Virus record (IMG/VR): IMGVR_UViG_3300021962_000021
Span: 124,001 to 188,000 of that record
Reading direction: 5' to 3' (one strand)
DNA: 64,000 nt
Source of the DNA: a virus
Under the pieces are notes generated by a model that had not been told where the DNA came from, searched no databases, and saw only the letters and a list, made by a program, of their open reading frames with translations. The translations under genes were made by a program, and so were the position numbers. Positions 39,763-61,901 of the stretch are shown here, in pieces (position 1 is the stretch's first letter; every line of letters begins with the position of its first letter).

Positions 39763-40629
39763 ATGAATAAAAAAATAAGATTAGTTACAGTAACAGGTTC
39801 GAGAACAGATACACTCGAATATATGATTAATCATTACTATGATTTGGTTGACGAGATTTATATTGTTGTTTATGATACAGGAAATGGACAATACGATAAA
39901 GTTAAAGAGATAACTGATAATTACAAAGACAAAATATTTTTATATAGGCACGATGATACTCAAGAATACAATTGGGAGACAGTTACAGCATTATACAATG
40001 AAATAAAAAATTTATATCCAAATGATTGGTGGGTTATTTCAGATGATGATGAATTTCATTTATATTCAAAACCATTAAGAGAAATAATAAATGATTGTGA
40101 TGAAAATAATTGGGATATAGTTAGAGGTGGTTTTATAGATAGAATTGGAGAAGATGGTAAATTTAAAGAAATTGAAAAATTCTCTAAAAAACAAAATATA
40201 TTTAGTCAATTTCCATATGCTGGATTTTTCAGATATCAAATGAGCAAAGCATGTCCTAATAAAATTTGTATTGTAAAGGGTTATATAGAAATAACTCCTG
40301 GTCAACATTATGCAAAGATAGATGGGCATACAACTTGGAGATGGCAAGGTTGGCAACACCCTTTAATTGCACCTGTAGATATTTACAATGTTCAGGTACA
40401 TCATTTTAAATGGGATAAAACAGTTGTTGATAGAATAAAAAAAGTAGCAGATATTAGAAAAGATTATGCATACTCAGATGAATATTTTAAAATGCATCAA
40501 TCATTAAGAAATTCAAATTTTGAATTGAATTTATTATCAGAAGATTATATGTTTGAATATTGTCCAGTTGCATCCTTTGAAAGTTACAAAAAATGGAAAA
40601 AATTATTTAATAAAATTATATCTATATAA
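39763..40629 (+). CDS. GT2-like glycosyltransferase (Glyco_tranf_2_4 type)
   Basis: This 288-residue protein begins IRLVTVTGSRTDTLEYMIN, the usual start of GT-A enzymes acting on unbranched acceptors. WWVISDDDEFHLY (about 90) gives the metal-binding DxD, and NVQVHHFKWDKTVVDRIKK (about 210) the His-rich end typical of this group. It should be a cytoplasmic inverting transferase. It follows the methyltransferase by 2 nt and precedes the first GT7-LamG gene. Confidence 0.82.
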   Translation: MNKKIRLVTVTGSRTDTLEYMINHYYDLVDEIYIVVYDTGNGQYDKVKEITDNYKDKIFLYRHDDTQEYNWETVTALYNEIKNLYPNDWWVISDDDEFHLYSKPLREIINDCDENNWDIVRGGFIDRIGEDGKFKEIEKFSKKQNIFSQFPYAGFFRYQMSKACPNKICIVKGYIEITPGQHYAKIDGHTTWRWQGWQHPLIAPVDIYNVQVHHFKWDKTVVDRIKKVADIRKDYAYSDEYFKMHQSLRNSNFELNLLSEDYMFEYCPVASFESYKKWKKLFNKIISI

Positions 40630-40637
40630 AAGGTTAT

Positions 40638-42086
40638 ATGCAAGATAAAAAGTTATCTATTATAGTTCCATATTCTGACCGTAAAGAACAAATGTATACA
40701 TTCATAGGTCATATGGAATATTTCCTTAAAGATAAGGTCAATTACGAAATACATTTCATAGAACAAAAAGATGCAGATGTTTATTTTAATTATGGTAAAC
40801 TATGTAATATTGGGTTTGATATAACCGCAGATACTTCTGATTATTATGTTTTTCAAGATATAGATTTATTACCAAAGCAAGATAATTGTGATTATACATA
40901 TACACATTATCCAACACATCTTGCTACAAATTTAAAACCATATGCAAATTGGATTGGTGGTAGTTTTAAAATAACAAAAGAAGATTTTATCAAAGTAAAT
41001 GGATTTAGTAATGATTATTGGGGTGGTATTTTTCATTGGGAAGATTTTCTATTTAGATTAAATAAACACAATCTATTGCCGGTTAAGAGATTCTTTACTA
41101 AAAATGTTTACAAACCACATAGATTAATTGATGTTGATGAGATAAATAAATTTAGTAAAAAAACAGTTTATCCATTTATTTCCGACCAAAATAATTGTGC
41201 TATTATAAAAGCAAATAAGAAAACTGATTATCTATTTGAAGATTCATTTACGATATCAATGGATATCTGGATAAACGATAATCAATCAACAAACGGGTGT
41301 ATAATTGGTAAGCAAGGATATGATATGGGTATTTTTGTTATGAAAAACCAGGCTATAGCTGTTCAAATCTGGGGAGATGATAATCAATTGTATAATATTT
41401 GGTTCGAACATAAAAACTATACAAATCAATGGATTAATTTAGCATTAAAAGTTGATATGGATTATAGAAAAGCATCTTTATTTGTAGATGGTAAATTGGT
41501 TGGTTGGAGTGAATTGCCAGATACATTAATGGATTTTAGAGGTAAAGATTTGTGGATAGGAAGTATGGCGTTTAGAGATTGTTTCGAAGGTAAAATATCA
41601 AATCTATTGTGCTTTGATTATGCATTAAACGATTCGGAAATAGAAAAAATATATGTTGATGGTTATAAAACAGATGATATTGTCAATACAAATTTTGAAT
41701 CTATAATAGACATAACATTTAGTAAAAAATTTGGAGATTTTTATGTAGATGAATCTAAATCAAAATCGCATGCAAGATTGATATCTACGGGATTACATAA
41801 CCAAATATATTCAGAAGAAATAACTCTTTCATACGAAACAAATATGCCAGAACAATCTTTGGGTAGATTTGAAGTTATGGAAGGAGAAGAAAAATTTTCT
41901 AAATTGGGTGTGTATAATTGGGTTGATAAGGATGGAAATTTTGTAGAAAATGAAAGTATATTTTTCTATGAAATAGCAAACAACACCCTAAACACAGACA
42001 ATTTTGGATTAAATACACTTTCATATGATTTATATGAAACAGAACAATTAAAAGATAATATATTTTTACACTCAATTAAAATTTAA
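40638..42086 (+). CDS. GT7-like transferase with inserted LamG domain, degenerate active site
   Basis: First of three tandem paralogues (482 residues). Residues 1-145 follow the beta-1,4-galactosyltransferase (GT7) pattern: IIVPYSDRKEQMYTF, NYGKLCNIGF, VFQDIDLLP (DxD) and GGSFKITKEDFIKVNGFSND. The catalytic WGWGxEDDD box, however, is WGGIFHWED, so activity is doubtful. A LamG-like domain spans about 185-375, with LKVDMDYRKASLFVDGKLVG and LWIGSMAFRDCFEG. The end (LGRFEVMEGEEKF, then NFGLNTLSYDLYE) aligns with the last part of the GT7 fold, so the lectin-like domain is nested in it. It may be a sugar-binding partner of the next two enzymes. Confidence 0.8.
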   Translation: MQDKKLSIIVPYSDRKEQMYTFIGHMEYFLKDKVNYEIHFIEQKDADVYFNYGKLCNIGFDITADTSDYYVFQDIDLLPKQDNCDYTYTHYPTHLATNLKPYANWIGGSFKITKEDFIKVNGFSNDYWGGIFHWEDFLFRLNKHNLLPVKRFFTKNVYKPHRLIDVDEINKFSKKTVYPFISDQNNCAIIKANKKTDYLFEDSFTISMDIWINDNQSTNGCIIGKQGYDMGIFVMKNQAIAVQIWGDDNQLYNIWFEHKNYTNQWINLALKVDMDYRKASLFVDGKLVGWSELPDTLMDFRGKDLWIGSMAFRDCFEGKISNLLCFDYALNDSEIEKIYVDGYKTDDIVNTNFESIIDITFSKKFGDFYVDESKSKSHARLISTGLHNQIYSEEITLSYETNMPEQSLGRFEVMEGEEKFSKLGVYNWVDKDGNFVENESIFFYEIANNTLNTDNFGLNTLSYDLYETEQLKDNIFLHSIKI

Positions 42087-42088
42087 AA

Positions 42089-42388
42089 ATGGCAAAAATT
42101 AAGTTACAAGAAGTAGAAACTCCAGAACAAAATTTAGAATCAGTTGTATTGGAAACAAGAAAAGTTAAAGCATTGGAAAAGATAGCAAATTCTTTGGATG
42201 CACTTACTATTTGGTTCGAAGAAATTGATAAGAAAGAATGGGGTGAAAGATTGGCATGGTATTTGTATGAATGGCATACAATGGCTAAAGCAAATTTTAG
42301 TGGGGAAGTTCCAACAACACAGGAAGAACAACAAACTCCACCACCACCAAGAAAAGTTAGACCAAAAAAAGATATAGAAAAAGTTTAA
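42089..42388 (+). CDS. small helical protein between GT7-LamG genes
   Basis: This 99-residue protein has one amphipathic helix region (VVLETRKVKALEKIANSLDA), a Trp-rich middle (KEWGERLAWYLYEWHTMAKA) and a Pro/Gln/Lys-rich tail. It lies 2 nt after one GT7-LamG gene and 3 nt before the next, so an adaptor or membrane-surface tether for these enzymes is possible. No family is recognised. Confidence 0.7.
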   Translation: MAKIKLQEVETPEQNLESVVLETRKVKALEKIANSLDALTIWFEEIDKKEWGERLAWYLYEWHTMAKANFSGEVPTTQEEQQTPPPPRKVRPKKDIEKV

Positions 42389-42391
42389 TAA

Positions 42392-43822
42392 ATGAAATTA
42401 GGAATCATCGTTCCATATAGAAATAGAGAGACTCATTTAAATAGGTTTATATCAGAAACAAAAAGTTATTTAAAATCTAAAAAAATAGATTCCGAAGTAA
42501 TAATAGTCGAACAATCCGATGATAAACCTTTTAATAGAGGAAAACTATTAAATGTTGGATATATAAAAGCAAAAGAGTTAGGTTGTGATTATATTGTATT
42601 TCACGATGTGGATATGATACCAATTGATGTTGATTATTCTTATTCGGAAGTTCCACTCCATCTTGCAACAAAATTTGAATTGGAATATGAAAAAGCTAAA
42701 AATTTAGAATTCGATGATTATTTTGGCGGAGTAACAATGATGTCAAATAAAACATTTGAAAAAATAAATGGTTATTCGAATTTATATTGGGGATGGGGAT
42801 TTGAGGATGATGACCTTCTATTTAGATGTGCAGAAAAGGGAATTATTTTAGATAGAAAAGTAATAGGAAAAAAAGAAGTTAAAAAAATATATGGTTTATA
42901 CTTCAATGGTAAAGATTCTCATATAAAGATTCCAAAAAAAGATTTATTTGATTTTAATAGGGATGCATCAATATTGATATCTTTTAAACCCGATGAAGTC
43001 ATATCTAATCCTATGAAAGAGTATGATGAATATACCGTATTCTCTATACCAGGGTATGATACTAATATATCTTATAATTCATTTAGAAGATATAAATGTG
43101 ATTTTTGGAATTCAAAAAATGAAAATTTATCTATTAATTCGGAAATACTTACAAATCACTTTACGCAAATTTGTATTACAATAAGTGTAAAAAATAAAGA
43201 AATTTCATTTTATAAAGATGGTGAATTGGTTGAATCAAAAAAATTAATAGGCGATTTCAAAAACTATTCAGATGAAGAATATTTTTATTTGGGCGTTGGC
43301 TCTCCTGAAAGATTAGATAACAACAATTATTTTTATGGTATAATTTCTGAATTTGCTATTTTTGATAAAGTATTAGATGAAAGAGAAATTGAAATACTTT
43401 CGGAAAATACATTAGAAAATTCTCTATTAGAAAATTTTAGAGCTTATAAATCTTCCGATAATTTAAAATTATATTACGATTTTAAATTCTACAAAAATAA
43501 AAAATTGATAGATTTATCAGGTAACGGAAATGATGGAGAAATTATCAATTCACATTTTATTAAATCAAACCAGCAATTGGGTAAAGAAATGATGGTTCCT
43601 TATAGAAGAGATAGTCTTTTCAAATTATTATCACACAAACCAAATAGTTGGAATGGTAAGAGTTGGGTTCATAGAGAAACCAGAATAAATCAATTGAGGT
43701 TTTTGAATGAAGTTAAAAAAAGATTATATAATATAGAATTAGATGGTTTAAATAGTTGTATGTATCAAATAATCGGAGAAGCAAAAAAAGAAAATATACA
43801 TCATTTATCAGTATTGTTATAG
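42392..43822 (+). CDS. GT7-like transferase with inserted LamG domain
   Basis: Second paralogue (476 residues). The GT7 half is canonical: IIVPYRNRETHLNRF, FNRGKLLNVGY (48-57), FHDVDMIP (DxD, about 70) and YWGWGFEDDDLLFRC (133-146), which binds the acceptor and supplies the catalytic acid residues. A LamG-like domain follows at about 165-395 (with IKIPKKDLFDFNRDASILIS and IISEFAIFDKVLDEREIEI). Residues 400-476 return to GT7: VPYRRDSLFKLLSHKP, then LDGLNSCMYQI at 450-460, the C-terminal signature of beta-1,4-galactosyltransferases. It probably transfers galactose or N-acetylgalactosamine; sugar specificity is not certain. Confidence 0.88.
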   Translation: MKLGIIVPYRNRETHLNRFISETKSYLKSKKIDSEVIIVEQSDDKPFNRGKLLNVGYIKAKELGCDYIVFHDVDMIPIDVDYSYSEVPLHLATKFELEYEKAKNLEFDDYFGGVTMMSNKTFEKINGYSNLYWGWGFEDDDLLFRCAEKGIILDRKVIGKKEVKKIYGLYFNGKDSHIKIPKKDLFDFNRDASILISFKPDEVISNPMKEYDEYTVFSIPGYDTNISYNSFRRYKCDFWNSKNENLSINSEILTNHFTQICITISVKNKEISFYKDGELVESKKLIGDFKNYSDEEYFYLGVGSPERLDNNNYFYGIISEFAIFDKVLDEREIEILSENTLENSLLENFRAYKSSDNLKLYYDFKFYKNKKLIDLSGNGNDGEIINSHFIKSNQQLGKEMMVPYRRDSLFKLLSHKPNSWNGKSWVHRETRINQLRFLNEVKKRLYNIELDGLNSCMYQIIGEAKKENIHHLSVLL

Positions 43823-43823
43823 T

Positions 43824-45281
43824 ATGAAATTAGGAGTTTGTGTTCCATATAGAAATCGACAAGAACATATGAATAAGTTTGTTCCTCATGTATCTAAATT
43901 TTTAGAAGATAGGGGAATTGAGCATACAATATATTTGGCACACCAATGTGATGAAAAATTATTTAACAGAGGTTTGATGAAAAACATTGCAGCCAAATAT
44001 GCATTTGATGATGGTTGTGATTATATAGTTTGGCATGATATTGATATGGTGCCAGAAGATGATAGTTGTGATTATTCATATAATCCAGATGCACCAAAGC
44101 ATTTGGCAGTTAGGATATCACAATCTGATTACGGATTAAAATATCAGGAATACTTTGGTGGTGCAGTGTTGTTTACAAAAGAACAAGTGATAAAAACCAA
44201 CGGATATTCTAATGGTTATTGGGATTGGGGTATGGAAGATGATGACTTATTTTGGAGATGTGTTTTAGAAGGATATGCCGATAAAAAAACATTAAATTAT
44301 AATAAAACAAAAACGGTTGGAGTATTTAATGGTAAATCATCATTTATAAAAATACCAAACCAACCTGATGATAAATTAAGACAATCTTTGAATTCTTGTC
44401 ATACCGTTTCTGTTTTAGTTAAAGCAGACCAGCAAATAGAAAAAGTTCCTATTTGGTTAATCGGTGATGATAAAAGAAAGTTTGTAGAATACCCTATAAT
44501 AAGAAAACCAGGATTTGATTGGGGATTATCTTTTAACAATAGTAGAGCATATACTGCAATGCTTTGGAATAATCATAGAGAACACATCTACCAATGGATA
44601 AAAAGATATGAAAATGAATGGAGTTGGGTTACTATGGTAGTGGATTCTAAAAGAAAAAGAATGCACTTATATATCAATGGTAGAGAAAGTGATGCAAGAA
44701 ATGGAATGGGAACACAATCACCAATCAGATATCAATATGATTTAAAAAGATATGGTAGTGAACCATTTTACATTGGACATACACCATCTGTTGCTGGATT
44801 TGAACCAAATGCATATTTTAAGGGCGAAATAGCGGATATAAAAATATGGAATAGAGCATTAGATGAAACCGAAGTTGAATTATTAAATAAACAATATTCA
44901 ACAAACGGATTAGTTTTACATTACAATTTTGATGATATAGAAAATGGATATCTAATAGACCAATCCGAATTAAATGATGGTTTTATAAATGATGTAAAAT
45001 TTGAAGAAAGAGATATTATAATACCTGATGTTGTATTACCACATAGACGAGATGGTAAATTCTTTTGTTTACCACATCAAACGGAAGGATTGATAAATGT
45101 TGGTGGAATAGAAAAGTGGGCAAAGGGTGAAACAACAGCAGCAAATGAAAGGAGATATGTATTAGAAATGCAACAAGGCAAAATAGATTATAAAAAAGAT
45201 GGTATAAATAGTATGAAATACACATACTTAAATACCCAAACAATATTTGAAAAACACAAAATGATTAACGTTCATTGTTAA
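43824..45281 (+). CDS. GT7-like transferase with inserted LamG domain
   Basis: Third paralogue (485 residues), with CVPYRNRQEHMNKF, FNRGLMKNIA, WHDIDMVPED (DxD at 72-74) and WDWGMEDDDLFWRC (133-146). The LamG-like region runs from about 165 to 395, with VTMVVDSKRKRMHLYINGRE and ADIKIWNRALDETEVELLNK. Residues 400-485 complete the GT7 fold with LPHRRDGKFFCLPHQ and YKKDGINSMKYTYL. The inserted domain thus lies between the catalytic acid box and the strand that carries the metal-binding His in galactosyltransferases. It is 1 nt from the previous paralogue; the array most likely arose by tandem duplication. Confidence 0.88.
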   Translation: MKLGVCVPYRNRQEHMNKFVPHVSKFLEDRGIEHTIYLAHQCDEKLFNRGLMKNIAAKYAFDDGCDYIVWHDIDMVPEDDSCDYSYNPDAPKHLAVRISQSDYGLKYQEYFGGAVLFTKEQVIKTNGYSNGYWDWGMEDDDLFWRCVLEGYADKKTLNYNKTKTVGVFNGKSSFIKIPNQPDDKLRQSLNSCHTVSVLVKADQQIEKVPIWLIGDDKRKFVEYPIIRKPGFDWGLSFNNSRAYTAMLWNNHREHIYQWIKRYENEWSWVTMVVDSKRKRMHLYINGRESDARNGMGTQSPIRYQYDLKRYGSEPFYIGHTPSVAGFEPNAYFKGEIADIKIWNRALDETEVELLNKQYSTNGLVLHYNFDDIENGYLIDQSELNDGFINDVKFEERDIIIPDVVLPHRRDGKFFCLPHQTEGLINVGGIEKWAKGETTAANERRYVLEMQQGKIDYKKDGINSMKYTYLNTQTIFEKHKMINVHC

Positions 45282-45285
45282 AATT

Positions 45286-46701
45286 ATGGCAGAGCAAAAA
45301 ACATACAAAGAAAATCCAATTTATTTAAGAGTAAAAGATGAACTTAATTCAGTTGGTCCAGGAATGTGTTTAGCAAAGTGGACACAAGTAACACTACAAT
45401 TGCAAAATGGACATAATCATTCATGTCACCATCCAAGAACACATAAAATTTCGGAACAAGAGATTGCACGAAACCCATCGGCACTTCATAATACGAGATA
45501 TAAAAAACTTCGTAGAAAAGAAATGTTACAAGGTAGTAGACCTGTTGAGTGTGATTATTGTTGGGGAGTAGAAGATAATTCTGACCGTTTTTCTGATAGA
45601 ATTTTTAAATCAGGAGAAAGTTGGTCTTATCCATTTATGAAAGAAATTACAGAATCAGATTGGAGAGATGATTACAATCCAAAATATGTAGAAGTAGCAT
45701 TCTCAAATGCATGTAATTTTAAATGTTCATATTGTGGACCCGCTTTCAGTTCAAAATGGGTAGAAGAAATAGAACAATATGGACATTATCCAACTCTTGA
45801 TAATTTCAACTCAACTGAGTGGATGAAAGTAGAAGATAAATTTCCAATTCCTGCTAGAGAACATAATCCTTATGTAGAAGCATTTTGGAAATGGTGGCCT
45901 GATTTATATAGAGATTTACACACCTTTAGAATTACAGGTGGAGAACCCCTAATGGCAAAAGATACTTGGAAAGTATTAGATTACATCATTGAACAAGAAA
46001 ACCCAAATACGGAATTAAAATTAGCGTTTAATTCGAATTTAGGTGTTCCTACCGAATTGGTTAAAAAATTTATTGAGAAGATAAAAAGAATTGAAGATGA
46101 AGGTAGAGCAAAAGAAGTTGTAATATTTACATCAGTTGATACTTGGGGAGAACAGGCAGAATATATTAGAACGGGATTAGAATTTAATCGTTTTTGGGAC
46201 CATGTTAATATGATATTGACAGAATGTCCTAGAGTTATTATTACATTTATGTCTACATACAACGCATTGAGTGTATTTAACTATGAACAATTAATTCACA
46301 ATGTATATACCTTAAAAGACCAATACGCATCATCTGATAGATATTGGAACTCAGCAGTATTTTTAGATTCATCATATTTAAGATATCCTTTACACCAAAC
46401 TGTGCAAGTTCTTCCTTATGATTTTTCTAAATATATTTTAGACCAATCTAAATTAATTACATATTATGCGGCACCATCATTTAGTCCTGAACACATTGGA
46501 TATAGTGATGTTGAAGTTCAAAAAGTAAAACGTATTTACGATTGGATGTTGGCACCACAAGATGCAACACAGCAAATGAAAAATAGATATAGTTTTTATC
46601 AGTATTTTTCAAATCACGATAAACGTAGAGGAACTAATTTTGTAAAAACATTCCCAGAATTGGAAGAGTTTTATAACTTTTGTAAAACAATAAAAATATG
46701 A
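45286..46701 (+). CDS. radical SAM protein with twitch-type auxiliary cluster region
   Basis: This 471-residue enzyme carries the radical SAM motif in SNACNFKCSYCGPAFSSKW (Cys143, Cys147, Cys150) and the partner motif FRITGGEPLMAKDTW (about 210). Before the motif lie more cysteines (HNHSCHHP near 47 and ECDYCWGVED at 89-92) that could hold an auxiliary iron-sulfur cluster, as in twitch-domain proteins common in marine T4-like phages. It should generate a 5'-deoxyadenosyl radical. In a sugar operon its task could be sugar epimerisation or dehydration, or peptide modification of an acceptor. The stop overlaps the next start (ATGA). Confidence 0.85.
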   Translation: MAEQKTYKENPIYLRVKDELNSVGPGMCLAKWTQVTLQLQNGHNHSCHHPRTHKISEQEIARNPSALHNTRYKKLRRKEMLQGSRPVECDYCWGVEDNSDRFSDRIFKSGESWSYPFMKEITESDWRDDYNPKYVEVAFSNACNFKCSYCGPAFSSKWVEEIEQYGHYPTLDNFNSTEWMKVEDKFPIPAREHNPYVEAFWKWWPDLYRDLHTFRITGGEPLMAKDTWKVLDYIIEQENPNTELKLAFNSNLGVPTELVKKFIEKIKRIEDEGRAKEVVIFTSVDTWGEQAEYIRTGLEFNRFWDHVNMILTECPRVIITFMSTYNALSVFNYEQLIHNVYTLKDQYASSDRYWNSAVFLDSSYLRYPLHQTVQVLPYDFSKYILDQSKLITYYAAPSFSPEHIGYSDVEVQKVKRIYDWMLAPQDATQQMKNRYSFYQYFSNHDKRRGTNFVKTFPELEEFYNFCKTIKI

Positions 46702-47447
46702 GTTTAAAAGTAGATAAGGATAATATATTTTTTATTTTACCTGAAAGTAGGTATTCTGTATCAAATAGAATTGATAAATGGATGGAAGAAGATTTTTCTT
46801 TACATCTATCCGCAAAAGTATTTTTAGAAGATTTGGATATTAATCAATCTTTTATGTTTGCAAGAAATGGAATGCATTCTGGGATATCGGCATTCAAAGA
46901 CCAATTTGATAATGTAAATGTTTCATTTAGTTATTGGTTTAGAACACCAAATGGAGAATCTGTTGTTAAGCAAGTATTTCATGGTTTACTTCCCGAAGAA
47001 GTTGGTGAATTTAATGAATACTCAATGATATGTGACCAGTTTGAAGATAGAAAGATAGATTGTTATTTTAATGGAAAATTGGTTGGAACCATACATTTTG
47101 GAGATGATGAAAAACAATCATATGAACATGCTTTTTATTGGTTTGGTTGTGGGAGTATGATAGGACCCGAAGAGCATAGGGGATATGGTAAGTTTGAATA
47201 CAAATTGTGTTTTCTATTAGATAAGAAATTAAAAATAGTTGAATTACAAGATATAGCAGATAACTACACAGATAAATACAGCCATACGGTTTTTAATGAT
47301 TTAAAGAAATTAAACTATGATTTTGCATTAAGACCGCATTTTGCATTTTTTTGTGATTTTAATCATCACAACCGATATAAAGTTTGGGATTTATCATTTA
47401 GCGGAAACTATCCACAATTTTATATAGAACACAATATATACTTTTAA
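46698..47447 (+). CDS. stand-alone LamG-like (concanavalin fold) protein
   Basis: The 249-residue protein shows the same LamG pattern as the inserts in the GT7 genes: DFSLHLSAKVFLEDLDINQS early, a central MICDQFEDRKIDCYFNGKLV (about 110-130) and FEYKLCFLLDKKLKIVEL near 175. No transferase motifs are present. It may be a soluble sugar-binding accessory protein. It overlaps the radical SAM gene by 4 nt. Confidence 0.7.
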   Translation: MSLKVDKDNIFFILPESRYSVSNRIDKWMEEDFSLHLSAKVFLEDLDINQSFMFARNGMHSGISAFKDQFDNVNVSFSYWFRTPNGESVVKQVFHGLLPEEVGEFNEYSMICDQFEDRKIDCYFNGKLVGTIHFGDDEKQSYEHAFYWFGCGSMIGPEEHRGYGKFEYKLCFLLDKKLKIVELQDIADNYTDKYSHTVFNDLKKLNYDFALRPHFAFFCDFNHHNRYKVWDLSFSGNYPQFYIEHNIYF

Positions 47448-49597: not shown

Positions 49598-50803
49598 ATG
49601 CTATACCAAAACGATATACATAATTTTGATAAATTCACAAAAGATTGGGATTTAGAAACCGAATATGTTTTATTTGGTGCAAGTAAGGAATGTGTCCAAT
49701 TTATTCGTAGTATGGATATATTAATGGGAGAAGGTGTATTGAAAATAAAATACATAGTTGACCATTCTATAAAAGATAAAGATACTTTGGATAACATAAA
49801 AGAAATAAGTTCGGCATATCACGAATCAAAAGTAATTCAATCAAATAGAAATAATTTAAAGTTGGTTAATATGGATGAATATGATTTCAATCTAAATCAA
49901 CAAATTATTATTACAACCGATGTATTTAAAAACAAATACAAAAAGTTATTGGATGAAAAAAATATAAAGTGGACTTGGTATAAACACATTGCTTCCATTT
50001 GGCCTTTCAAACATAAAAACAAAACTCATATATTTCAAACGGATGTATTGGTGACTGAAAAATGCACATTAAATTGTTCTCATTGTAATATGTTCATGCC
50101 ACATTTTGAAACACCAATTCATAGAGAAGTTGATACAATAAAGAACGATATTGATTCATTTTTTAATAAAGTGGATTATGTTAGTGTGTTTCATTTGGTA
50201 GGTGGAGAGCCATTTTTATATCCAAATATTGAAGATGTAGTTAGATATGTTATTACAAACTACATTCATAAAATTGATAAATTAATAATTACAACCAACG
50301 GAACAATTTTACCAAAAGATAGCATGCTTAATTTATTAAAAGTAAATGATGTTATTTTGAGTGTAAGTGATTATACCGATAAGCTGGAAAATATAAAAAA
50401 GAAAGTCACAAAGGTATTAGAAAAATATAAAGAAGTTGGAATCAATCATTATGTTAGAAATGAAATTGAATGGTATGATTTCGGAGATTTAAGAATAAAG
50501 GGTGGTAGAACAACGGAACAATTGATAAATCATTTTGATTCATGTACAGCACCATTTAGAGGATTAAATGATGGTAAGTTTTACTATTGTCACCTAAACA
50601 CATCGGCAGTTAGAACAAACTTATTTCCATTAAACGATAATGATTATGTTGATATAAAAATAATTTCAAACGAAGAACTATTAAAGTTTGATTTGGGTTA
50701 TACTGACTTAGGATATATTACATTTTGTGATAATTGCAATGGTTGCAACACCGGAATTAAAATACCTGTAAGTTACGAAAAGCAAGGAGTTAGAGATTTA
50801 TGA
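49598..50803 (+). CDS. radical SAM protein with SPASM-like C-terminal cysteines
   Basis: A 401-residue protein. The N-terminal 140 residues have a Rossmann-like opening EYVLFGASKECVQFIRSMDI and are not part of the radical SAM barrel. The barrel starts at TDVLVTEKCTLNCSHCNMFM (Cys156, Cys160, Cys163), with HLVGGEPFLYPN (about 200) and ITTNGTILP. The C-terminus has FCDNCNGCNTG and earlier single cysteines that could bind one or more auxiliary clusters, as in SPASM enzymes that modify peptides or sugars. Substrate is unknown. It overlaps the HAD gene by 4 nt. Confidence 0.85.
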   Translation: MLYQNDIHNFDKFTKDWDLETEYVLFGASKECVQFIRSMDILMGEGVLKIKYIVDHSIKDKDTLDNIKEISSAYHESKVIQSNRNNLKLVNMDEYDFNLNQQIIITTDVFKNKYKKLLDEKNIKWTWYKHIASIWPFKHKNKTHIFQTDVLVTEKCTLNCSHCNMFMPHFETPIHREVDTIKNDIDSFFNKVDYVSVFHLVGGEPFLYPNIEDVVRYVITNYIHKIDKLIITTNGTILPKDSMLNLLKVNDVILSVSDYTDKLENIKKKVTKVLEKYKEVGINHYVRNEIEWYDFGDLRIKGGRTTEQLINHFDSCTAPFRGLNDGKFYYCHLNTSAVRTNLFPLNDNDYVDIKIISNEELLKFDLGYTDLGYITFCDNCNGCNTGIKIPVSYEKQGVRDL

Positions 50804-58016: not shown

Positions 58017-61000
58017 ATGAATTTAATAAACGAAGTAGATAAACCGGAAATTAAGAAAACTGTTGTAATATTTTCAGGCAGATTTCAACCCTTTCATAGA
58101 GGACATTATGCAACATATGAGCACTTAGTGTCAAAATTTGGTGCTGCAAATGTTTACATAGGAACATCAAATGACCAATCTGGTCCAAAATCTCCGTTTG
58201 GATTTAAAGAAAAAAAGGAAATTGCAACAAAGATGTTTGGTATTCCTTCAAATAGATTTATACAAATTCGTAATCCATATCAACCGATTGAAATACTTAA
58301 AAAATTCGATGGACAAACTACGCAATATATTGCAGCAGTAGGAGAGAAAGATGCAACAAGATTGCAAGGTAAATACTTTAAACCATATAAAGGCAAAGCT
58401 GGATATGGTTATGATGAAATTGGTTATGTTTATCCGGTACCAGCAGAACAAAATCCAATAAGCGGAACGGATGTTAGAAATGCATTAGGTAGTGGGAATG
58501 ATGAAAAAGCTAAAAAGTTTTTTCTAAAAGCATATCCAAAATTTGATAAAGAAATATATAAAATGATAACAGGAAAGTTAAATGAGAATTTTATAAAAGG
58601 TTATCCATCAAAAGAAGATGTTAAAAAAATCCAAAAGAAAAATGATGATATTCGTTCAGTAGCAACTACGGATGATTCATATGTATATGACCCAATTGCA
58701 GAATTAATTGGTAGAGTGGCAGCAGAAGAGATGTTTAATGAATTTATTTTAGAATATTTGGATGAAGCACCTAATAAAGCATTAGACCAAGACATCACTT
58801 ATACAAATAGTAAAGGCCAGCAAAAGAAAATTAAAGCCAGGGATGCATTAAGATTACCAAAAGACCATCCAGCTCACGTACAAGCAGCTAAAATAGCAGG
58901 ACCGGATGATGCACCTGTGAATGAACCAAAAGCAAAAAAAGAACCAGGAAAAGCAGCTCAAAAAGCAGCAGAACCATCTCAGCCTGGTCAACCAACCAAA
59001 AAAGACCAAACCCAACAAGGAAAAATAGATAAAGAAAAATCATCTACCAGTGCACAATCTGGAAAAGAACAAGGTCCACCACCTGAACAAAAATTAAGTG
59101 GAACTGAATTAAAATCTTCAGCAGAAACTACACCTAAAGACCAAAAAGCCGAAAAAGTAAAACAAGCATTGGATGGTGCAAGAAAAGAGTTATCAAAAGA
59201 AGATAACCAAACTATTGATAAAGTAAACAACCCACAATCTCCGGAAAGAAAAGGAATGATGGGTAACATTAAAAATGGTTTAAAAAAGATTGGTGATGGA
59301 TTAGGACATTGGGCAAAGCATAAGGCAGAAATGGTCGGTGGAACGGTTGATGCAGTAAAAGCATTAGCAAATGGACAGAAAATTGGTTCTACTAAAAATA
59401 AAGAAACAGGCGAATGGGAATACTCCGATGAAAAAAGAAAAGAACAGATAAAACATATAAAACACTTTGCATTGGATGCTGGATTGTTAATAGGTTCTAT
59501 GGCATTGGGTGGAGCTGGAGTTGCAGGAGTAAAAGCAGTGATGGCAGGTAAAGGAGCGGCCGCAGCGGGTTCTGCAGCATTACACGGCGCCGCTGGTGCA
59601 TTTACACATGGTGCCGTTGGATTTGGTGCACATTTGGGTAAAGATATTGCAAAACACGCCGCATTGGAAACATTAGGATTGGGAGGAGTTAGCGCAGCAG
59701 GTGGTGGAGCAGCGTTATCCATAGCAACGGGTGGGATATTGGAAATGATTAATGAAGAAATTGATGATAACAACAAATTTATATCAAACTTTATGAGAAA
59801 GGTTGTCGAAAAAATGGAAACATATCAACTTTCCGATGAACAACTACTCAAATCTATTGAAAATTATAAGAAAAATAAACCAAAACAAGATGCAGCCGAT
59901 TTGTTAAGAGAAAACCTTTCAGAAACAAAACAACAATCAATTCAACATTTTGTAGAGTTTGCAACTAAAAGATTAAAATTACAAGAAACACCAAAAGTTA
60001 ATTTAGTAGGTGGTGGAGAATTTGCAGAAATAAAAACCAGTTTAGGGGGATTTGACCCTGAAACAAAAGAAATATATGTTGCAACCGAAGGAAGATTAAC
60101 GGCGGATATTTTAAGAACTCTTGCACATGAAATGGTTCACAGAAAGCAAGATGAAATGGGATTGGTTAGAAATCCTATGAAAGATGGTGCAGATGGTTCT
60201 CCAATAGAAAACCAGGCGCATGCAGTTGCGGGTATTCTAATGAGGGAATATGGTAGAATTAACAAACAAATATATCAAGAAGGAAAAAACTCACCGGCAT
60301 ATAAAGGACCGGAAGGATACGATGATAGTTGCGATTGTTATCCAAATGAAGATATTAACTTAGATGTTGATAAGGGTGATACTTTATTGATGGGAAAGTT
60401 TAAAAACAAAAAAGTTACAGTAAAAGATATTGGTGTAGATGACCACGGAATGCCAACAATCAATGGTAAGCAAGCAACTACATTTCGTAAAGTAGATGAA
60501 ATGGGCAGTAAGGATATTCATTTTAAAAATATTTTAGATAAACTAAAAAACGGAAACTATACAACAAGAAAGAAGATAGCAATGGCAATTGTCGGTAAGT
60601 ATAATGCAAGTAGAGATACCATTGTAAGAGCTTTGCGTAATATGGGATATGATGATATTACAAATGTTGAAAAGCAAGCCGGAATAGAATTAAATGAAAA
60701 TTTATTATTAGAAGGTGGTGCATATGGACACATGTCGCATCCATTTGATGATATGGATTTAACATTTGGTGACCTTAAAAATATAATTACAGGAGCACTG
60801 AATGGTGATTTGGGTGTAGTAAGAGAGAAAACCGATGGACAAGCATTAGCTATCAGTTGGAAGAATGGTAGATTGATTGCAGCAAGAAACAAAGGACATT
60901 TAGCAAATGCTGGAGCAAATGCTATGGGTATTGAAGATGTTGCATCAAAGTTTGCCGGAAGAGGTGGATTAACCGATGCATACAATTTCGCAATGAGAGA

Positions 61001-61901
61001 TTTATCAGCTGCAATTAGTTCTCTATCAGAAGCACAAAGGAAAAAAATATTCAACGAAGGACAATGTTTTATGAATTTGGAAGTAATATGGCCAACTTCG
61101 GTAAATGTTATTCCTTATGGACAGGCTTTATTAGTATTCCACAATACAACATGTTATGATGAGAAAGGTGTTGCAATTGGAGCAGACCAAGGAGCATCAT
61201 CTACATTAGCAGGAATGATTAAGCAAGTAAATGCAGATGTTCAATCAAAATATACAATACAAGGCCCGCCTATTACTTCAATTCCAAAAGATGAAAACCT
61301 TTCTTCTAAACAAGGAAAGTATTTATCAAAATTAAGTAAACTACAATCTGAATTTAAATTATCCGATAGTGATACGGTTGCACTTTATCATCAGAGTTGG
61401 TGGGAAAATTTTATAGATAAAAAATCTCCAGTTAAAGTTGATAAATTAACAAAAGAAGCTTTAGTAAGAAGATGGGCATTTGGTGATAAATCGTTTAGAT
61501 TAAATACAATATCAAATCCTAAGTTACAAGAGTGGGCAATAGAGAACGATAAAGTAAATGTAGAAAAACAACAAAAAGAAAATATAAAACCATTTGAAGA
61601 AATATTTTTAAGTGTTGGAGCAGATGTATTAGATTTTGTAAGTTCAGTATTGACAGTTCATCCGGAAAAAGCAATAAGAGCAATAAAGAATAAATTTAAA
61701 TCAGTTGCATCTGAAGTTAGAGGGAGTGGAGATAAAACAAAAATACAAAAACTTAAATCGGAATTAAAAAGATTAAATGATTTAGGTGGAATTGATAGAA
61801 TAGTTGCATCTGAAGGTTTGGTATTTTTCTATAACGGAAAAACATATAAATTGACAGGAACATTCGCACCGTTAAATCAAATATTAGGATTATTTTATTA
61901 A
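58017..61901 (+). CDS. multidomain phage protein: nucleotidyltransferase, HExxH metalloprotease-like and KxDG ligase-like regions
   Basis: This 1294-residue protein holds three recognisable parts. Residues 12-185 are an NMN-adenylyltransferase-like domain with SGRFQPFHRGHYATYEHL (HxGH at 27-30) and NPISGTDVRNAL. A charged, Lys/Gln/Pro-rich linker (about 270-420) follows. A hydrophobic Gly/Ala segment (about 488-580) could insert into a membrane. Residues about 640-760 carry a zinc-protease site, TLAHEMVHRKQDEMG (H704-E-x-x-H708), with a possible third ligand Glu731. Residues about 900-1150 have VVREKTDGQALAISWKNGRL (K938-T-D-G), which looks like motif I of ligases and mRNA capping enzymes (DUF6267-like in my memory). 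A late-type motif precedes it, so it may be carried in the virion. Confidence 0.75.
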   Translation: MNLINEVDKPEIKKTVVIFSGRFQPFHRGHYATYEHLVSKFGAANVYIGTSNDQSGPKSPFGFKEKKEIATKMFGIPSNRFIQIRNPYQPIEILKKFDGQTTQYIAAVGEKDATRLQGKYFKPYKGKAGYGYDEIGYVYPVPAEQNPISGTDVRNALGSGNDEKAKKFFLKAYPKFDKEIYKMITGKLNENFIKGYPSKEDVKKIQKKNDDIRSVATTDDSYVYDPIAELIGRVAAEEMFNEFILEYLDEAPNKALDQDITYTNSKGQQKKIKARDALRLPKDHPAHVQAAKIAGPDDAPVNEPKAKKEPGKAAQKAAEPSQPGQPTKKDQTQQGKIDKEKSSTSAQSGKEQGPPPEQKLSGTELKSSAETTPKDQKAEKVKQALDGARKELSKEDNQTIDKVNNPQSPERKGMMGNIKNGLKKIGDGLGHWAKHKAEMVGGTVDAVKALANGQKIGSTKNKETGEWEYSDEKRKEQIKHIKHFALDAGLLIGSMALGGAGVAGVKAVMAGKGAAAAGSAALHGAAGAFTHGAVGFGAHLGKDIAKHAALETLGLGGVSAAGGGAALSIATGGILEMINEEIDDNNKFISNFMRKVVEKMETYQLSDEQLLKSIENYKKNKPKQDAADLLRENLSETKQQSIQHFVEFATKRLKLQETPKVNLVGGGEFAEIKTSLGGFDPETKEIYVATEGRLTADILRTLAHEMVHRKQDEMGLVRNPMKDGADGSPIENQAHAVAGILMREYGRINKQIYQEGKNSPAYKGPEGYDDSCDCYPNEDINLDVDKGDTLLMGKFKNKKVTVKDIGVDDHGMPTINGKQATTFRKVDEMGSKDIHFKNILDKLKNGNYTTRKKIAMAIVGKYNASRDTIVRALRNMGYDDITNVEKQAGIELNENLLLEGGAYGHMSHPFDDMDLTFGDLKNIITGALNGDLGVVREKTDGQALAISWKNGRLIAARNKGHLANAGANAMGIEDVASKFAGRGGLTDAYNFAMRDLSAAISSLSEAQRKKIFNEGQCFMNLEVIWPTSVNVIPYGQALLVFHNTTCYDEKGVAIGADQGASSTLAGMIKQVNADVQSKYTIQGPPITSIPKDENLSSKQGKYLSKLSKLQSEFKLSDSDTVALYHQSWWENFIDKKSPVKVDKLTKEALVRRWAFGDKSFRLNTISNPKLQEWAIENDKVNVEKQQKENIKPFEEIFLSVGADVLDFVSSVLTVHPEKAIRAIKNKFKSVASEVRGSGDKTKIQKLKSELKRLNDLGGIDRIVASEGLVFFYNGKTYKLTGTFAPLNQILGLFY

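Follow-up and report, generated by a model that had tools for sequence, protein, structure and literature searches.

Three neighbouring genes of a T4-like virus encode proteins of the GT7 glycosyltransferase type (family-7, B4GALT-like GT-A enzymes) whose catalytic fold is, at sequence level, split by a LamG domain. We think it rather probable that LamG was inserted in a GT7 beside its metal-binding histidine, that this protein was duplicated to three paralogues in which LamG holds the acceptor, and that the first of them, P1, is non-catalytic. The window, by which we mean the whole stretch of 64,000 nucleotides analysed, comprises bases 124001-188000 of a 238,219-base virus record. The gp23-type major capsid protein of this record is 51-55% identical to its counterparts in Flavobacterium phage immuto and Microcystis phage Mel-JY01, and the virus is therefore T4-like; a Bacteroidota host is possible. 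The three ORFs P1, P2 and P3 (482, 476 and 485 aa) all lie on the + strand, and each has matches to Glyco_transf_7N, Glyco_transf_7C and Laminin_G_3, every one above the curated Pfam cut-off (Table 1).

Table 1. Positions in the window of the GT7-LamG genes, their parts and the accompanying genes
Feature	Position	Strand	Evidence and remarks
GT2-like glycosyltransferase upstream in cassette	39763..40629	+	in 76/84 loci; Glyco_tranf_2_4 6e-6, just below cut-off
P1, GT7-LamG protein 1, 482 aa, probable pseudoenzyme in window lineage	40638..42086	+	Pfam GT7N 5e-15, GT7C 5e-7, Laminin_G_3 4e-13; AF2 pLDDT 89.8, pTM 0.79
P1 GT7 N-block	40638..41069	+	DxD (DID, 40857-40865) kept; xED position H-W (41034-41039)
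P1 nested LamG region	41151..41825	+	Pfam core residues 201-335; AF2
P1 GT7 C-block	41847..42083	+	C-His lost (GRFEVMEG); FGLNT instead of DGLNS
Conserved 99-aa gene between P1 and P2, no assigned function	42089..42388	+	in 77/84 related loci
P2, GT7-LamG protein 2, 476 aa, predicted active	42392..43822	+	GT7N 9e-21, GT7C 3e-18, Laminin_G_3 9e-13; B4GALT1 E 2e-28
P2 GT7 N-block	42392..42859	+	HDVD, YFGG, WGWGFEDDD
P2 nested LamG	42887..43591	+	Pfam
P2 GT7 C-block	43592..43819	+	metal-ligand C-His H415 at 43634-43636; DGLNS
P3, GT7-LamG protein 3, 485 aa, predicted active	43824..45281	+	GT7C 4e-19, GT7N 2e-17, Laminin_G_3 2e-13; AF2 pLDDT 91.1, pTM 0.84
P3 GT7 N-block	43824..44276	+	DxD D72/D74 at 44037-44045; xED E138-D139 at 44235-44240
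P3 nested LamG	44307..45023	+	flanked by long connecting strands, residues 152-169 and 392-406
P3 GT7 C-block	45033..45278	+	C-His H418 at 45075-45077; DGINS
Radical SAM protein accompanying cassette	45286..46701	+	in 83/84 related loci; Pfam Radical_SAM 3e-5, below curated cut-off
Stand-alone LamG-like protein adjoining cassette	46698..47447	+	weak Laminin_G_3; homologues in other loci match nested-LamG profile to 1e-18

The C-terminal block and the GT7 fold

The nesting depends on the block that follows LamG. Pfam alone is indecisive on it, since the GT7C match in P1-P3 ends at profile position 43-65 of 78, just past the WGWGxEDDD helix. The GT7 N- and C-region profiles (PF13733, PF02709) score above gathering in P2 and P3. 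A profile of 73 P3 and P2 sequences (A1), searched against PDB, matches the N-block of B4GALT1 with an i-E of 2.5e-46 and then, in order, its C-terminal KKNEPNPQRFDRIAHTKETMLSDGLNSLTYQVLDV stretch with a conditional E of 1.6e-4; the own i-E of this stretch is 28, and it therefore counts only as a second, colinear B4GALT1 stretch. We also ran an HMM of the C-block by itself on 684 ORFs from bacterial genome loci; it matched about 38 LamG-less bacterial GT7s, mostly 0-15 residues past the N-block and with E-values of about 1e-2 to 1e-8; among these 684 ORFs it gave no match to any without a GT7 N-block. With LamG excised, the viral and bacterial GT7s have L416, H418, G422, N441, D459 and G460 (P3 numbering) in common, and profile, HMM and alignment comparison show the segment after C-His in P2 and P3 to be homologous to B4GALT.

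The C-block of P1-P3 is thus the missing end of the GT7 fold, and from homology, conservation, the joint loss of residues in P1 and the pTM we infer that it packs on the GT7 core. That it is an unrelated tail carrying DGLNS by chance, behind GT7 fragments and LamG, might be argued from the early end of the Pfam match and from a single-sequence phmmer search of PDB with the P2 C-block, which found nothing, but we reject this as highly improbable, because the HMM finds uninterrupted GT7s at the right place, the B4GALT1 match is colinear, and C-His, N441 and G460 are conserved and common to bacterial GT7s.

AF2 models calculated on alignments are confident for both P3 and P1 (scores in Table 1), and in P3 one long strand (152-169) leads into LamG and another (392-406) out of it. 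For the N-block the best Foldseek matches in PDB were B4GALT7 and B4GALT1; the LamG insert best matched pentraxins and a putative carbohydrate-binding Bacteroides protein. Whole-model alignments cover either the GT7 N-block or LamG and give no common score for the split fold; longer GT7 alignments are few and have a high rmsd (7-15). None of the best 50 PDB or best 50 BFVD matches was to a protein whose description names both GT7 and LamG. The insert belongs to Laminin_G_3 by a profile score above the cut-off as well as by its jelly-roll fold, which is a fold assignment only; LamG domains are not always lectins, and sugar binding is putative here.

The initial annotation had read both flanking blocks as GT7, with LamG nested inside the fold. 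Both blocks are placed in GT7 by Pfam together with the C-block HMM, the hits on uninterrupted bacterial GT7s and the colinear B4GALT1 match being what bears on the C-block, and the nesting stands on the HMMs, the uninterrupted homologues, the colinear matches, the confident models and the alignment of an empty site described below.

The insertion site

In a LamG-less viral GT7 (L180) the residues GIQTYRKK are directly followed by CRYKSLDH, and the junction alignment, read without the rows L151 and L189 (wrong ORFs, picked by length), has LamG parting these two halves in P2 and P3. Homologues have only a short hairpin tip at this site. In the GT-A core, the C-terminal tail past strand beta-8 forms hypervariable region 3 (HV3), and the acceptor specificity of GT-A enzymes is carried by HV regions including HV3 (PMC7185993). 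The metal site of B4GALT1 consists of D254, M344 and H347 (PMC7565966). The histidine in the LDH, LPH or LSH that follows LamG aligns as the GT-A 'C-His', and would be His347 in B4GALT1. From the empty-site alignment, this equation and the description of the GT-A core, LamG is placed between strand beta-8 and the metal-binding C-His, just upstream of the mobile loop.

In B4GALT1 the metal site is part of a mobile loop that closes over the donor (PMC4202792). This loop begins at about the LamG junction, and in P1-P3 it runs uninterrupted within the C-block. The suggestion that LamG sits at the junction that holds this loop was accordingly right to within one strand, but the insert precedes the metal-ligand histidine and the loop itself is intact in the C-block.

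Catalytic residues

DxD, xED and C-His are invariant in the alignment, in all 62 P2 and all 61 P3 sequences, and so is, in both, the tyrosine (Y110) that aligns with Tyr289 of B4GALT1. In B4GALT1, Tyr289 favours UDP-Gal over UDP-GalNAc; the retained Y110 would fit UDP-Gal as the donor. The metal ligand of the Met344 type, three residues before C-His, is absent: the position is Cys in 60 of 61 P3, and Leu, Ser, Lys or Thr in P2. Proline is the commonest residue there in LamG-less bacterial GT7s, so methionine does not define the wider family. We predict P2 and P3 to be active, and assign them by their motifs and profiles to CAZy GT7 as B4GALT-like enzymes, which is not a claim that they are B4GALT1.

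P1 is different. In the window it has GGIFHWED in place of the WGWGxEDDD box, with H-W at xED, a glycine in the C-His column, and FGLNT. Of 24 P1 sequences, 12 retain the base D139 and 10 retain C-His, and a few are without DxD (counted by a regular-expression table, a few missed rows being read from the alignment), and some basal P1s retain all motifs. The rows that keep C-His also keep the D139 base, and those that have lost it have a broken xED or DxD; this joint decay argues that the C-block is tied to the active site, although the independent events are few. Comparison with two relatives gives a dN/dS of 0.11-0.14 in P1, and of 0.06-0.16 in P2 and P3. The LamG and GT7 parts are alike in this, and the ratios are approximate since dS is 0.6-0.95. 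P1 is maintained by purifying selection without the catalytic residues in the window lineage. As the base and C-His are lost and the gene is yet under such selection, P1 of this lineage is probably a pseudoenzyme.

All three proteins had been annotated as galactosyltransferase-like enzymes with DxD, WGWGxEDDD and DGLNS-type signatures. This applies to P2 and P3, which keep DxD, xED and C-His, with DGLNS in the former and DGINS in the latter, but of these features the P1 of the window shares only DxD.

Distribution and origin

Relatives of P3 are encoded in 240 IMG/VR stretches. In 84 loci that were read closely, LamG is present in every ORF with a GT7 N-block (201 of 201). Of 80 loci, 35 have the full tandem P1-P2-P3 and 39 have P2-P3 alone, counts that are limited by the 4 kb flank, some of the P2-P3 loci being cut by it or at contig ends. 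A search of 50,697 records of cultured phages gave no relatives of P1, P2 or P3, and the GT7-LamG family appears to be common in uncultured aquatic viruses. GT7-LamG pairs also occur in contigs that had been assigned to MAGs of Pelagibacterales and Flavobacteriales (L084, L085, L086); these contigs are probably viral and give a weak hint at hosts.

Viral GT7s in which the N- and C-blocks are joined without LamG amount to 43 ORFs. No other domain was found at the same site among the viral GT7s, which had short forms, LamG, or no C-block found (35 rows, many of them cut by the locus end). In trees the GT7s with LamG fall together, either beside or within the LamG-less viral ones, with an SH-aLRT support of 85 in one tree, and of 86/67 and 84% of bootstrap trees in another. 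The nested LamGs are separate from stand-alone LamGs in the tree, except for one long-branch row, and the pairwise identities of the GT and LamG parts correlate (r = 0.94 overall, 0.81-0.87 within paralogues). A single origin of the LamG insertion is moderately supported by the trees, and one insertion before the duplication would be the simplest reading; an independent insertion in each paralogue is disfavoured by the trees. The trees disagree on the order in which P1, P2 and P3 branched, and for that reason we propose none. A separate group of short viral GT7s (L132-L149) clusters with bacterial enzymes, apart from the other viral GT7s, which suggests an independent acquisition.

Comparison with known systems

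The best solved relatives are B4GALT1 and B4GALT7 of vertebrates and insects (CAZy GT7), with about 33-36% identity over 150 residues. They have FNR, DxD, YFGG, WGWGxEDDD, C-His, DGLNS and the metal-dependent active-site residues in common with the viral enzymes, but are Golgi type II enzymes with no domain between beta-8 and C-His and no lectin-type insert. Short bacterial GT7-like proteins (Azospirillum, Pelagibacteraceae and others) and the LamG-less viral GT7s have the same N- and C-blocks in the same order, but without LamG, with a core of about 210-260 aa and the blocks nearly adjacent.

A glycosyltransferase with a lectin module usually has it attached at one end of the chain. To our knowledge this is also the case in GT27 and GT54, where the lectin is a C-terminal appendage and not nested in the catalytic fold; these families share the combination of GT-A domain and lectin with P1-P3, and differ in where the lectin is placed. 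For the ppGalNAc-transferases (GT27) and GnT-IVa (GT54), the lectin is reported to influence acceptor use or activity (PMC4432651, PMC9296478). The splitting of a GT-A fold has a precedent in the GPI-GalNAc transferase PGAP4, a different GT-A enzyme interrupted by an inserted module (PMC5785973), which is a pair of transmembrane helices and not a lectin. Aureococcus anophagefferens virus has a putative beta-1,4-galactosyltransferase (AaV_274), and its particle packages both GT7 and LamG proteins, which are however described as separate proteins, the LamG ones without any other known domain (PMC7507832); the Foldseek alignment to this GT7 spans 160 columns only. In the open-access literature we found no description of GT7 together with LamG, or of a lectin or CBM nested in a GT-A enzyme.

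A proposed role of the nested LamG

We propose that a single LamG jelly-roll was inserted at the hairpin tip between beta-8 and the C-terminal strand that bears C-His, most likely once and in a viral GT7, and that duplication then gave three paralogues that travel as a cassette in T4-like viruses. P2 and P3 would be active, metal-dependent, inverting hexosyl transferases, probably galactosyl transferases. Their LamG would lie next to the active site on its acceptor side (HV3) and hold an acceptor glycan or glycoprotein, and P1 of the window lineage would be a non-catalytic partner or a sugar-binding paralogue. The three may build or decorate a virus-encoded glycan jointly with the GT2, nucleotide-sugar and methyltransferase genes around them. 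The suggestion that a nested LamG could gate or guide the acceptor is plausible.

The nesting could also be real and LamG uncoupled from catalysis, being a tether to a part of the virion, the host surface or a complex partner at a site that tolerates insertions. We regard this as rather unlikely. LamG does occur as a separate protein of the cassette and as part of a further viral protein, the hairpin tip is short in homologues, and P1 retains its LamG though catalysis is probably lost; on the other hand the site adjoins the active-site histidine and HV3, and by dN/dS selection constrains LamG to the same degree as the catalytic part.

Chondroitin polymerising factor supports chondroitin synthase, and in a similar way P1, P2 and P3 might make up one hetero-oligomer in which an inactive P1 supports the active P2 and P3. 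The co-conserved tandem order would agree with this, as would an intact P1 under purifying selection without xED or C-His, but many loci have only P2-P3, if some of them by truncation, and there are basal P1s with every motif in place, and we find such a complex unlikely.

Still more doubtful is a stronger version of acceptor holding, where LamG is a moving clamp coupled to loop closure, the acceptor polymer switches on catalysis, and P1 is a sugar-holding subunit of the same complex. Since LamG hangs from the C-His hairpin that leads into the mobile loop, the binding of a ligand would on this proposal be mechanically coupled to closure of the loop.

In P1-P3 the domain stands within a catalytic fold, beside the metal-binding histidine and the loop that closes over the substrates, and homologues that naturally lack LamG are at hand for comparison. 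It can therefore be tested directly whether a GT-A enzyme is steered or switched by a sugar-binding domain set into its fold.

Gene neighbourhood

Among the neighbouring genes are those for a GT2-like enzyme, a methyltransferase, epimerases, an RmlC-like isomerase and a Nol-like carbamoyltransferase, a set consistent with a glycan encoded by the virus. Two radical SAM proteins lie in this glycan-type cluster, at 45286-46701 and 49598-50803 of the window, and the near-constant presence of the former (Table 1) suggests that it is functionally linked to the cassette. Many related loci have LamG-like genes at a position similar to that of the stand-alone LamG gene of the window. Farther downstream, at 58017-61901, a protein of 1294 aa has an N-terminal cytidylyltransferase-like domain (Pfam CTP_transf_like 1e-4) and a remainder without assignment. 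A protein of 586 aa (L130:208-1968; G000 ~217171-217599, outside the window) combines a Hint/intein-like segment in its middle (CLLFGTKVTKANGTEV ... TISHNKG) with a C-terminal LamG, and is possibly a self-processing virion or adhesin protein.
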